A stretch of DNA of 45,505 bases. Origin: a virus. Position 1 is the first letter of the stretch, and each line of letters begins with the position of its first letter. The notes under the pieces are model-generated. The model had not been told where the DNA came from. It saw nothing but the letters and a program-made list of their open reading frames with translations, and did not search any database. Location: the IMG/VR virus record IMGVR_UViG_3300047472_000054, positions 1 to 45,505 of that record; one strand, written 5' to 3'. Shown here in pieces: positions 3,120 to 34,920 of the stretch. A program made the translations under genes and the position numbers.

Positions 3120-4597
3120 CAGTGCGTAACTTGGCCCATCCAATTTGTGGTAAATGAAGCGCCTGGAGTGGCCGCACACCCAACCGCCTGAGCGGCCTGC
3201 GATTGCGACGTCGAGAACGTGCCGCTGAAGGTGTTGCCCGACACGGCCACGGCCGATTGGCCGATCACCGTTGCTACACCATTCGTCACGGTTCCGACGA
3301 TGAAGCGATTGTTTTGCGCCGTGCTGGCTGTAGAAGAACCGAAATCAAACACCGCCGTCCCATTGCCCATATTGACATAGTTTTTGTCGATATTGACTTG
3401 GTTAGCCGCAGCAGCACTGAAGTCCACCATCTTGCTCATGGTGCCGGCTCCAGCGAAGGTATTGCCGACGATGTTGATCATAACCGGATTAGCGGCGCTA
3501 CCATTGTGTTTGATTGCGCCCGAACTTGTGGCGCTGCCTCCGGTGTTGTTGAGCGTGAAGTAGTTGTTGAGGATATCGATTCCGGCGACCGTCCCGCCAA
3601 GTTCGATCGCGAAGGAGTTAGCTTCGTCTTCGATATAGTTGTCACGGAACACAACCTTCGAGGTCGTGTCGAAATGGATGGCATTCGCGGTGTTACTTGT
3701 GCCGGGGTGGCGCTCGAAGCGTGAGTTGGAGACGAAATGACCGCTACCGCTGGTAATGCTCAGGGCCAATGCTGCGTAGCCGTTGAAAAACACATGATCA
3801 ACAAAGATGGCCTGAGCGAACGCAATGCCTTGCGGGTTGATCGACAGACATACAGTCGAGCAGTTAGCTATAACCGTGCCGCCAATGAAGTGGACGCTGT
3901 AGCTCCCGCCGCTTGAAACCGTGTTCGACGTAACGCGCACAGTCTCACTGCCGCCACTCATGTAAACGTTGTTGAAGACAATGTTCTGCTCAACATCCTG
4001 AACCTGGACTATGCGCGAGCAGGATGCCGAGCAGACCAAGCCGATATTCTGGAGAAAGATGCCAGTTGCATTCGCGCCAGATGACGGGCCGACGGTAAGG
4101 CCAATGCTTACGCCAGTGTATGTCAGGATGCTTGAGCCCGGGCCTTCTCCGGCGAAGGAGCACCCTGACGCGGAGATCTGCCCCGCGGTCGCGAACTGGT
4201 AGTTGCCTGCCGGGACCCAGATCAGGCCGGGGTTTAACGCGCACGCGGCAATAGCCGCCGCTATTGCAATCGAATTGCGCTGGGCCGTGTCGGCGCCAGA
4301 CACGGCCCCATACGTCGTGATATTGTAGGTCGGGACCCCGGCTTTGGTGATAGTCGCGACGCCGCTGGCGGCAATCGAAATATCGCCAGTGATCGTCTTG
4401 CACAACGGGTTTGCCGCTGTTTGCCCAATCGGAAATTGACCGCCGCTGCAAAGCAGCGACCCAAACCCCTGCACGCCGGCCCCCTTGCCGATCGCAAAAG
4501 CACGATTGGTGACAGTGCCGCCCTGCTGCGCCTGTACAGGAGCAATAAAAAAGGCCGCCGAAGCGACCAAAGAGACCAGCCTATTTAGAGATTTCAT
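3116..4597 (-). CDS. Tailspike-like beta-helix protein with N-terminal signal-peptide-like segment
   Basis: 493 residues. After residue about 105, NITTYGAVSGADTAQ and then IWVPAGNYQF match the start of the pectate-lyase/right-handed beta-helix fold (D-G-V-x-D-T and P-x-G-x-Y elements) found in tailspikes and receptor-destroying depolymerases. Repeated N-N and F-x-N turns follow down to the C-terminus. The ATG at 4597 gives an ATGA overlap with the upstream gene; the frame continues to 4741 but only as basic, low-quality sequence. Unusually, the chosen start gives MKSLNRLVSLVASAAFFIAP then VQAQQ, a convincing signal peptide, which virion proteins normally lack. Receptor polysaccharide is the likely target. 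Confidence 0.75.
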   Translation of the reverse strand: MKSLNRLVSLVASAAFFIAPVQAQQGGTVTNRAFAIGKGAGVQGFGSLLCSGGQFPIGQTAANPLCKTITGDISIAASGVATITKAGVPTYNITTYGAVSGADTAQRNSIAIAAAIAACALNPGLIWVPAGNYQFATAGQISASGCSFAGEGPGSSILTYTGVSIGLTVGPSSGANATGIFLQNIGLVCSASCSRIVQVQDVEQNIVFNNVYMSGGSETVRVTSNTVSSGGSYSVHFIGGTVIANCSTVCLSINPQGIAFAQAIFVDHVFFNGYAALALSITSGSGHFVSNSRFERHPGTSNTANAIHFDTTSKVVFRDNYIEDEANSFAIELGGTVAGIDILNNYFTLNNTGGSATSSGAIKHNGSAANPVMINIVGNTFAGAGTMSKMVDFSAAAANQVNIDKNYVNMGNGTAVFDFGSSTASTAQNNRFIVGTVTNGVATVIGQSAVAVSGNTFSGTFSTSQSQAAQAVGCAATPGASFTTNWMGQVTHC

Positions 4598-20221: not shown

Positions 20222-20481
20222 CGCAACACCAATTTCGTCAATTTAACGATCTGCATGCCCACGTGCCGCTTGCCCTCTGCAAACGTCGTGTCGCGGTCAC
20301 TGTCAGGACGAAAACTGAGATCATAGGTCGCGCACGCCGTGTTGATGATCCAAGCCAGTGCGCGTTGCTGTTGGCCCTCGTTTGCCTTGCCGGCTGCGAG
20401 AGCCTTGATTGCGTAGACGTCGGCCTCATCATATGGCGCGGGGTGCCATGGCTGAGGGATGGGAATTTTCTTATTCGCCAT
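20218..20481 (-). CDS. Small head-region protein, possibly Bbp19-like
   Basis: 87 residues with the pattern ALAAGKANEGQQQRALAWII then DSDRDTTFAEGKRHVGMQIV. This R-D-T-x-F-x-E-G-x-R-x-V-G pattern resembles the small conserved protein next to the portal in podoviruses such as Bordetella BPP-1 (Bbp19). Its role is unknown. It is flanked by overlapping genes on both sides. Confidence 0.65.
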   Translation of the reverse strand: MANKKIPIPQPWHPAPYDEADVYAIKALAAGKANEGQQQRALAWIINTACATYDLSFRPDSDRDTTFAEGKRHVGMQIVKLTKLVLR

Positions 20482-33147: not shown

Positions 33148-33405
33148 TTAGTCTCGTCGCGTTATCTCGAACATGATGGCTGCGAGCACGACACCAGGCG
33201 GCTCGAACTCGCCAGATAGCCAGCGGGAGCCGGTGCGCTCGTCTTTTCCTGCAATGCTCGCAATGTGAGCGGCCGTCTTGATTGGCCATAAGGCCTTGGC
33301 GACAATTCCGAATTTTCCCACGCTGACAATTTTGTCAGTGCCCTGCTGAATTCGTCGTTCGGTTTCGCGAGCTTGCGCTGCTCGGCTTGGTATGGTCCCA
33401 TGCAT
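33148..33405 (-). CDS. HTH-containing early protein
   Basis: 85 residues. The C-terminal half reads WPIKTAAHIASIAGKDERTG then SRWLSGEFEPPG, a helix-turn-helix pattern known from small rhizobial phage and prophage proteins (from memory). The N-terminus is charged and may be flexible. It is the second gene in the leftward early operon after the Cro-like gene and may be a CII-like or accessory regulator. Confidence 0.65.
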   Translation of the reverse strand: MHGTIPSRAAQARETERRIQQGTDKIVSVGKFGIVAKALWPIKTAAHIASIAGKDERTGSRWLSGEFEPPGVVLAAIMFEITRRD

Positions 33406-33475: not shown

Positions 33476-33673
33476 TCACGCGGCGTCCGCGTCGCGTTGA
33501 CGGATAAACTCGTGGACACGATCAACGATGCCGAGACCGGGAAGCCGGCCAGCTCGGAGATCGCTGATAAAATTGGGGTCGTTGAGGGCTGCCTTGCCAA
33601 AAGCTGTCGGCGACATGCCACTACGGCTAAGGAAGGCCTCGACCTCGGACAGGAATTGCTGGGAATGCGTCAT
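33476..33673 (-). CDS. Cro-like repressor
   Basis: 65 residues: FLSRSGMSPTAFGKAALNDP then NFISDLRAGRLPGLGIVDRV, a compact HTH of the Cro/phage repressor class. It is divergent from the CI-like gene with the three-operator gap between them, the standard position for Cro in a lambdoid switch. The ATG is at 33673 with the promoter at 33682-33710. Confidence 0.8.
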   Translation of the reverse strand: MTHSQQFLSEVEAFLSRSGMSPTAFGKAALNDPNFISDLRAGRLPGLGIVDRVHEFIRQRDADAA

Positions 33674-33681
33674 GGTTTGTG

Positions 33682-33710
33682 AAGTTAATAGGACTATTCC
33701 TATTCGTCAA
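33682..33710 (-). promoter_or_regulatory. Leftward early promoter (cro side) with embedded operator
   Basis: On the minus strand TTGACG (33705-33710) and TAACTT (33682-33687) are 17 bases apart. The spacer is almost entirely the palindrome at 33688-33703. It should drive cro and the leftward genes and be shut by CI. Confidence 0.7.
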
Positions 33711-33751
33711 GAGGCAAACGCCTATTTGCCAGAAAATAGGGAATTTCCTAC
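33688..33751. promoter_or_regulatory. Three CI/Cro operator copies in the cI-cro gap
   Basis: Site 1 at 33688-33703 is ATAGGACTATTCCTAT. Site 2 at 33710-33725 is AGAGGCAAACGCCTAT. Site 3 at 33736-33751 is ATAGGGAATTTCCTAC. All share the half-sites RGG...CCTA with dyad symmetry; starts are 22 and 26 bases apart. The layout resembles the lambda right operator triplet. Two more copies lie before the right early operon. Confidence 0.75.
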
Positions 33752-33754
33752 AAG
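33726..33754 (+). promoter_or_regulatory. Promoter of the CI-like gene (PRM-like)
   Basis: TTGCCA (33726-33731) and TACAAG (33749-33754) are 17 bases apart, with operator site 3 in the spacer. Transcription would begin about at the ATG at 33762, suggesting a leaderless repressor mRNA as in lambda PRM. GAGGG lies only a base or two before the ATG. Confidence 0.55.
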
Positions 33755-33761
33755 TGAGGGT

Positions 33762-34499
33762 ATGGATCCCGTCCGAAAGCTGATTCTGGAGAAGGTCGAG
33801 GAGACCGGAACCAACCTGAAAGCCCTATCCAAGGCGATCGGGAAGAATGACGCTTATATGCAGCAGTTTATCCGCCGCGGGGTGCCGCAGGTTCTTGACG
33901 AGGATATACGCCCTACGCTCGCTGAGAAGCTGGGCGTTGATCCAAATCAATTGAGGATTGGTTCCGCTCTTGGGAACACAGCCTCCAGTAACCATATCGA
34001 TAAACCAGTAAAAGCCACGATTGCGTCAAACCCTTTAGCGCAGGTTAATGGCAACCTGAAAGGGCAGCCACTTGGAGCGCTCACGCCTGGGGAGCAGCTC
34101 GTCGGCGAGGCCGATCTGCCAGTATTTGCCATGGCCCAGGGCGGCCGGGGTGCGTTAATCGTGACAGAGAATGCGGTTGACTGGGTGGTGCGCCCTGACC
34201 CTCTACTCAGGGTCAGGGATGGTTATGGAATGATCGTTGCGGGCGATTCTATGTCGCCCAAGATCGATGCGGGATCAACAGCGCTGGTAAACCCCCATTT
34301 ACCACCCCGCACGGGAGATCTTTGCATCTTTCGGCGACACGCTGATGACGGCCTGGTCGAGGCTTGCATTAAAGAGTTCGTTCGGGCGACGGATGACCTC
34401 TGGTATGTCAAACAGTACAACCCAAAGCGGACCTTTTCGCTGAAGCGGGCCGAATGGCAGGTGTGCCACGTGACTGTTGGAACCTATTTTAGCCGCTAA
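33762..34499 (+). CDS. CI-like phage repressor (HTH plus S24 peptidase-like domain)
   Basis: 245 residues. The N-terminal HTH spans about 17-60 (LKALSKAIGKNDAYMQQFIR then LAEKLGVDPNQLRIG). A linker (68-115) is followed by a LexA/CI-like C-terminal domain with S163 in GDSMSP and K204 in ACIKEF as the catalytic pair, plus GDLCIFRRH. Such repressors dimerise and may self-cleave during the SOS response; the usual Ala-Gly cleavage pair is not obvious (AQGG near 125). It maintains lysogeny by binding the operators on both sides. The ATG at 33762 is chosen because earlier codons lie in the operator region. Confidence 0.9.
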   Translation: MDPVRKLILEKVEETGTNLKALSKAIGKNDAYMQQFIRRGVPQVLDEDIRPTLAEKLGVDPNQLRIGSALGNTASSNHIDKPVKATIASNPLAQVNGNLKGQPLGALTPGEQLVGEADLPVFAMAQGGRGALIVTENAVDWVVRPDPLLRVRDGYGMIVAGDSMSPKIDAGSTALVNPHLPPRTGDLCIFRRHADDGLVEACIKEFVRATDDLWYVKQYNPKRTFSLKRAEWQVCHVTVGTYFSR

Positions 34500-34541
34500 A
34501 AAGTAGCGTGAGCCTTGCTGACAGATTTATTTCTGCGCCAA

Positions 34542-34585
34542 GTAGGATTTTGCCTATTGACTGGATAGGAATAGTCCTATAGATT
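34542..34585 (+). promoter_or_regulatory. Right early promoter with two operator copies
   Basis: Palindromes at 34542-34557 (GTAGGATTTTGCCTAT) and 34565-34580 (ATAGGAATAGTCCTAT). The second is the exact reverse complement of site 1 in the cI-cro gap. TTGACT at 34557-34562 and TAGATT at 34580-34585 are 17 bases apart, so the operator fills the spacer. This drives the plus-strand early operon beginning at 34612. Confidence 0.75.
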
Positions 34586-34611
34586 TCTCCCATCAGATCG
34601 GGGAGCACCAC

Positions 34612-34920
34612 ATGGCCGAGCCAGTCTACTTCGTTCAGTGCCAGTTCAAATCAGGCCGCGCATGGATCGAGCGCGACCCGGCTTCGATGGACTTCAATTC
34701 GACCGTTGACGATCTTGCTGATGGCCAGATCGAGGACATGGTGTCCGTCCTCGAAATCACGGACGGCGCCGCGCTTGACGTGACCGACAAGGTGTCACGC
34801 GCCGTCAAGACGAAGTGGGCTCACGAAGGCGAGCCCCTCACCCACGCTCAATACGAATTCGTTGAGATGCACGTCGGCACCCGCGCCGCGCGTAGTTTCC
34901 TGCGGCATGAGGTGGCGTGA
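34612..34920 (+). CDS. Early protein of unknown function
   Basis: 102 residues starting MAEPVYFVQCQFKSGRAWIE, acidic, with a C-terminal THAQYEFVEMHVGTRAARSF. It is the first gene behind the CI-controlled right promoter, with a GGGGAGCACC site before the ATG. The first gene of such an operon is often an antiterminator or regulator, but nothing in this sequence shows that. Confidence 0.65.
   Translation: MAEPVYFVQCQFKSGRAWIERDPASMDFNSTVDDLADGQIEDMVSVLEITDGAALDVTDKVSRAVKTKWAHEGEPLTHAQYEFVEMHVGTRAARSFLRHEVA

Follow-up and report, generated by a model that had tools for sequence, protein, structure and literature searches.

The question raised by this locus is whether a group of short palindromes around a phage repressor gene works as a lambda-like genetic switch, as the initial annotation proposed. 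The locus lies in a viral sequence of 45,505 nucleotides, the whole of which was analyzed and is hereafter called the window. Its operator type is a 16-bp palindrome, ATAGGA-N4-TCCTAT, and five copies flank an S24-type repressor gene. We consider it very probable that the locus is a temperate-phage immunity region of the lambda type, in which CI and a divergent Cro compete for the five operators.

Operator palindromes and the genes beside them

The operators and the genes that adjoin them are as follows:

33476-33673, minus strand: cro, a 65-aa helix-turn-helix protein with relatives at the same place
33688-33703: O_R1, inside the P_R spacer, an exact inverted copy of O_L1, ATAGGACTATTCCTAT
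33710-33725: O_R2, the weakest site, abutting the P_RM -35 box, its position kept in relatives, AGAGGCAAACGCCTAT
33736-33751: O_R3, within the P_RM spacer, ATAGGGAATTTCCTAC
33762-34499, plus strand: cI, a repressor of 245 aa with an N-terminal helix-turn-helix and an S24 domain
34542-34557: O_L2, GTAGGATTTTGCCTAT
34565-34580: O_L1, within the P_L spacer, the exact reverse complement of O_R1, ATAGGAATAGTCCTAT
34612-34920, plus strand: first gene of the P_L operon, function not assigned

When the sequence was re-read, all five palindromes were found exactly where they had been annotated, the two outermost were indeed exact reverse complements of each other, and cI lay between the two operator groups with cro to the left, as first described. 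A search of the whole 45,505-bp record with the 16-mer also upheld the expectation that exact copies would be confined to the switch, as they occurred only at the two outer sites, and tolerating up to 3 mismatches still returned those two sites only (4 matches over both strands, with 0.02 expected). The exact 16-mer was not found in the literature searched.

In order to score the individual sites, a matrix was built from the relatives described below, with the window left out. Both outer sites scored 27.5, O_R3 21.2 and O_L2 20.5, the highest score among 20 shuffled genomes being 18.5. The score of O_R2 (13.7) was below the shuffle maximum and not significant by sequence alone, and this site was therefore accepted because its position, about -52 relative to the start of cI, recurs in relatives. 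When the two intergenic stretches were shuffled, a mean of 0.14 sites reached at least 9/12, and none of the 5000 shuffles contained five sites; the five palindromes as a set thus exceed chance. To regard them as chance palindromes in AT-rich intergenic DNA, one could point to O_R2, which alone scores within the chance range, but the number of sites, the perfect inverted repetition of the outer pair and the recurrence of the layout at 16 other loci speak against such a reading, which is refuted by the comparison and left with a negligible probability. Elsewhere in the record, the pattern ATAGGANNATTCCTAT with 2 mismatches gave a single weak additional match, at 20459. This solitary operator-like sequence outside the switch (20459-20474, ATGGGAATTTTCTTAT) has a matrix score of 13.9, about that of O_R2, and is probably a chance occurrence.

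The start codon of cI is backed by alignment with relatives, and its product matched PF00717 (8e-9) and the PHROG 4 repressor family; searches of genomes and viral contigs with the single CI sequence gave only distant S24 matches. The CI structure model had a pLDDT of 64 overall and about 80 in the N-terminal domain, with the linker unmodelled. Searched against the PDB, the full predicted model matched lambda repressor best, and the modelled N-terminal domain resembled P22 c2 and 434, with a TM-score of 0.81 (target-normalised) to the P22 c2-operator complex. The architecture of a lambda-type repressor, an N-terminal helix-turn-helix joined to a C-terminal S24 domain, is therefore present in CI. 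The catalytic dyad, Ser163 and Lys204, is kept, and the Ala-Gly cleavage position reads A-Q-G-G (residues 125-128, at about 34134-34145 of the window), as it does in nearly all relatives. Since A-Q-G-G replaces the Ala-Gly bond that is cut in lambda CI and LexA, SOS induction is uncertain, and induction governed by this CI may take place outside the usual SOS route.

A small divergent helix-turn-helix gene, cro, adjoins cI as in a lambda-type switch. The AlphaFold model of Cro (pLDDT 89) shows a small helix-turn-helix protein whose Foldseek matches, to helix-turn-helix proteins of the lambda family, were weak, and no family match was obtained for the protein; given both points, Cro would be only a presumptive ligand of these operators. 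No stretch of the Cro alignment was conserved enough for scanning. The second gene after cro (33148-33405, 85 aa) is a positional candidate for a CII-like regulator, without family support. Integrase is encoded at the distal end of the rightward operon. No Rfam match and no tRNA were found.

Conserved layout and co-variation of operators with CI

When viral contigs were scanned for the exact 16-mer, 31 were found to carry it. In five of these an inverted pair of the 16-mer, spaced 0.87-1.4 kb, encloses an S24 repressor gene; most of the 31 have no operator cluster, look like chance matches and were discarded. Further loci were found from an alignment of the repressors of those five contigs. 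A plasmid search gave no near DNA match to the window, and added a 46.6-kb circular record named as a Bradyrhizobium plasmid (NZ_CP094518.1; L135 and L138) that carries the same switch and that, because it has portal, capsid and integrase genes, we take to be a phage genome deposited under a plasmid name. The same layout was present in 16 other phage or prophage loci, and judging from these relatives the host of the window's phage probably belongs to the Alphaproteobacteria.

Detailed comparison covered the window and 15 relatives, plus L132, which is without the O_L side. Across the compared loci, the left operators are found close to positions -75, -52 and -26 relative to the start of cI, and the opposite strand carries the cro start at a distance of about 88 nt. 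The rightward operon is preceded by two operators, usually near +780 and +803, and at up to +1330 in loci with additional DNA. In L123, L127 and L131, cI and O_L2 are separated by about 0.4-0.5 kb of additional sequence containing an open reading frame, where a lysogeny gene could be located.

The outer sites are mostly matched within each locus. Read in promoter orientation, O_R1 and O_L1 differed by 1.4 mismatches within a locus versus 3.6 across loci, and none of 20,000 permutations was as good, although relatedness among the loci makes them less than fully independent as samples, so that permutation figures overstate their independence. Exact O_R1/O_L1 matches were also present in loci that had not been found via the 16-mer, with GTAGGAATAGTCCTAT in L134, AGAGGAATAGGCCTAT in L135 and ATAGCAATCGTACTAT in L129. 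The exceptions to the matching are L123/L127 and L125/L126, with 4-5 mismatches.

Differences between operator half-sites correlated with differences in CI residues 27-36 (0.55), as opposed to 0.14 for the rest of the CI N-terminal domain and 0.15 for the C-terminal domain, and a partial Mantel test of operators against residues 27-36 gave 0.53 (P about 0.002), in each case for a helix window that was chosen after the data had been seen. A simple residue code, in which a change from HA to ET would go with ACAGGA operators, was dropped, given that L095 has ET with ATAGGA operators.

These comparisons bear on the proposal that the palindromes are mainly operators for Cro or another regulator, with CI at some of them only. 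In its favour, the Cro of the telomere phage PY54 uses a single site (PMC4488713), and changes in Cro coincide with changes in the operators: in L128, L129 and L133, where the operators differ, the recognition helices of CI and Cro both differ, that of Cro being NLYRHL. Against this, operator changes follow the CI recognition helix and not the rest of CI, and in L115 both the N-terminal domain of CI and the operators are the same while the S24 C-terminal domain is different. We therefore hold a mainly Cro-directed operator set to be quite improbable, and retain CI as the likely principal ligand in what follows. Taken with the predicted fold, the layout and the matched outer sites, the co-variation of helix and operator supports the original description of a lambda-like switch with a CI-like S24 repressor.

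Promoters, the P_L hairpin and the proposed working of the switch

The promoter elements, and a hairpin at the start of the rightward operon, were assigned as follows:

33682-33687, minus strand: alternative P_R -10 box TAACTT, spacing 17
33685-33690, minus strand: putative P_R -10 box TATTAA, spacing 14, the likelier by comparison across relatives
33705-33710, minus strand: P_R -35 box TTGACG, first T common to O_R2; TTGAC or at least TTG in relatives
33726-33731, plus strand: P_RM -35 box TTGCCA, directly after O_R2; compare TTGCCT in Pc of phage 16-3
33749-33754, plus strand: P_RM -10 box TACAAG, 7 nt before the cI ATG
34557-34562, plus strand: P_L -35 box TTGACT, first T common to O_L2; TTGAC in nearly all relatives
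34578-34583, plus strand: putative P_L -10 box TATAGA, spacing 15
34580-34585, plus strand: alternative P_L -10 box TAGATT, spacing 17
34587-34605, plus strand: hairpin CTCCC-ATCAGATCG-GGGAG, straddling the predicted P_L start

P_R and P_L are built to the same plan, with O2 followed by a TTGAC whose first T overlaps O2, and O1 as the spacer. Of the twin TTGAC(T/G)-N17 promoters originally proposed, both -35 boxes held, but the -10 boxes at N17 are weak (TAACTT, 3/6; TAGATT, 4/6). A recurrent -10-like element across the relatives begins with the TAT that ends O1, at a spacing of mostly 14-15 and up to 18, which makes the N17 spacing uncertain. In a scan for consensus promoters only P_L passed, as one match versus 0.9 expected.

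A third predicted promoter, P_RM, with O_R3 within its spacer, had been missed in the initial annotation. In most relatives a TAYAAR-like hexamer lies 6-8 nt before the cI ATG. Since the P_RM -10 box of the window is 7 nt before the ATG, much as in Pc of phage 16-3 (6 nt), the cI mRNA is probably leaderless, and the cro mRNA probably nearly so. In phage PY54, the cI and cro mRNAs were both found to be leaderless by RACE (PMC4488713). It could be argued that the set of three and two operators is real but that cI is expressed from elsewhere, with O_R3 only a Cro site or a leftover, as O_R3 is degenerate in L129 and L133 and the P_RM -35 box is poor in several relatives. The recurrence of the -10-like hexamer before the cI ATG, and its match to the annotated 16-3 Pc, count against this, and we regard it as unlikely.

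With P_RM as the promoter of cI, the switch would work as follows. In the prophage, CI would bind first to O_R1 and O_L1, the best sites, and also to the adjoining O_R2 and O_L2, which would shut P_R (leftward, to cro and the replication genes) and P_L (rightward, to the early genes with integrase at the far end). From O_R2, which lies against the P_RM -35 box and is centred near -44, CI could activate cI. Because O_R3 fills the P_RM spacer, excess CI bound there would shut P_RM off again; the predicted geometry of P_RM fits both activation from O_R2 and repression from O_R3. We infer that looping between the two operator groups, over about 0.85 kb, may contribute. Cro would presumably act on the same sites, and thereby tip the switch to lysis.

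The hairpin at P_L suggests a further layer of control. The first P_L gene has its ribosome-binding site in the 3' arm of this hairpin, and the 5' arm is placed after the -10 box and ahead of the predicted P_L start (about 34590-34593). The view that the hairpin is an ordinary 5' leader structure was set aside, since the 5' arm is at or before the predicted start; RNA initiated at P_L would thus be without most of this arm. As cI reads straight towards P_L, and a scan of the interval between them found no terminator-like site on the plus strand, a read-through lock is plausible, by which RNA reading through from cI would be untranslatable at the first P_L gene and RNA initiated at P_L would be translatable. 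Given that it depends on predicted starts, we put this lock forward tentatively, at somewhat below even confidence. A hairpin is found at the same place in L120-L135, L095 and phage 16-3 (L118), before different first genes; in the relatives it comes immediately behind O_L1.

The tests of the hairpin were chosen after the data had been seen, and the leader start codons and both start-site estimates were assigned in this analysis. Fixed 38-nt segments folded with a mean z of -2.45 in 16 loci versus -0.04 at 94 other gene starts, and the ribosome-binding site was predicted to be unpaired at 11% in read-through RNA versus 35% in P_L RNA (17 loci, paired P 2e-5). Ribosome-binding sites of other genes of the operons were predicted to be 37-40% unpaired. 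Pairing of a hairpin arm was stronger with its own partner (-11.8 kcal/mol) than with the partners from other loci (-8.7 kcal/mol), a result that no permutation in 100,000 equalled and that speaks against base composition as the sole cause. In the window, the hairpin belongs to the weaker examples, with z 0.1 for the fixed segment and rank 5 of 18 for pairing. The same principle operates in IS10 transposase and T4 gene e; an earlier report of such a lock in phage switches was neither confirmed nor excluded by a literature search. If the lock is true, it would prevent the prophage's repressor transcript, which is aimed at the early operon, from turning on a lytic gene.

Comparison with known phage switches

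By sequence, the closest characterised repressor is the C repressor of Rhizobium phage 16-3 (DQ500118; 28% identity over 96%, E 1e-10), so that the description of the locus as lambda-like holds for its working and not for the nearest repressor sequence. The identity is mostly in the S24 domain, and the N-terminal domains differ. Phage 16-3 likewise has its repressor gene between OR and OL and an annotated Pc beside OR1 (TTGCCT, with TATAAG 6 nt before the ATG), and the ribosome-binding site in its P_L leader has a pairing partner in a 5' arm behind the -10 box. In contrast to the window, its annotated operators number two and two and are of the ACAAT/ATTGT type, and no recognisable Cro homologue was found at the place of cro. 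In phage 16-3 an unannotated small open reading frame (L118, about 3363-3449) comes after the P_L hairpin and a ribosome-binding site reading GAGGAG.

The arrangement of the sites is that published for the telomere phages N15 and phiKO2 (CB/Cro), to which PY54 is related, with three OR between the repressor gene and cro and two OL, although those phages have other hosts and other operators and are linear plasmid prophages. As regards lambda, in which CI at OR1 and OR2 represses P_R and activates P_RM, OR3 represses P_RM and OR-OL loops form (PMC3708714), the likeness extends to the predicted CI fold, and both lambda-type features, three related operators between cI and cro and a second group at the other early promoter, P_L, are present. 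The best two sites are likewise those at the O1 positions, and integrase is at the far end on the P_L side. The differences are that the window has two O_L sites instead of three, is without the Ala-Gly cleavage bond, and has its operator groups about 0.85 kb apart versus 2.3 kb in lambda, where a loop of about 2.3 kb has three sites on each side (PMC5880393).

Together, the window and its relatives define a lambda-type switch family of alphaproteobacterial phages. Its operators are clear, its twin promoters are matched and it includes natural variants of specificity, which makes it useful for the prediction of immunity and for orthogonal repressor-operator pairs. The O_L1 and O_R1 of lambda are likewise nearly identical, so the principle of matched outer sites is not new, and the switch described here is a new but ordinary example of the lambda plan.
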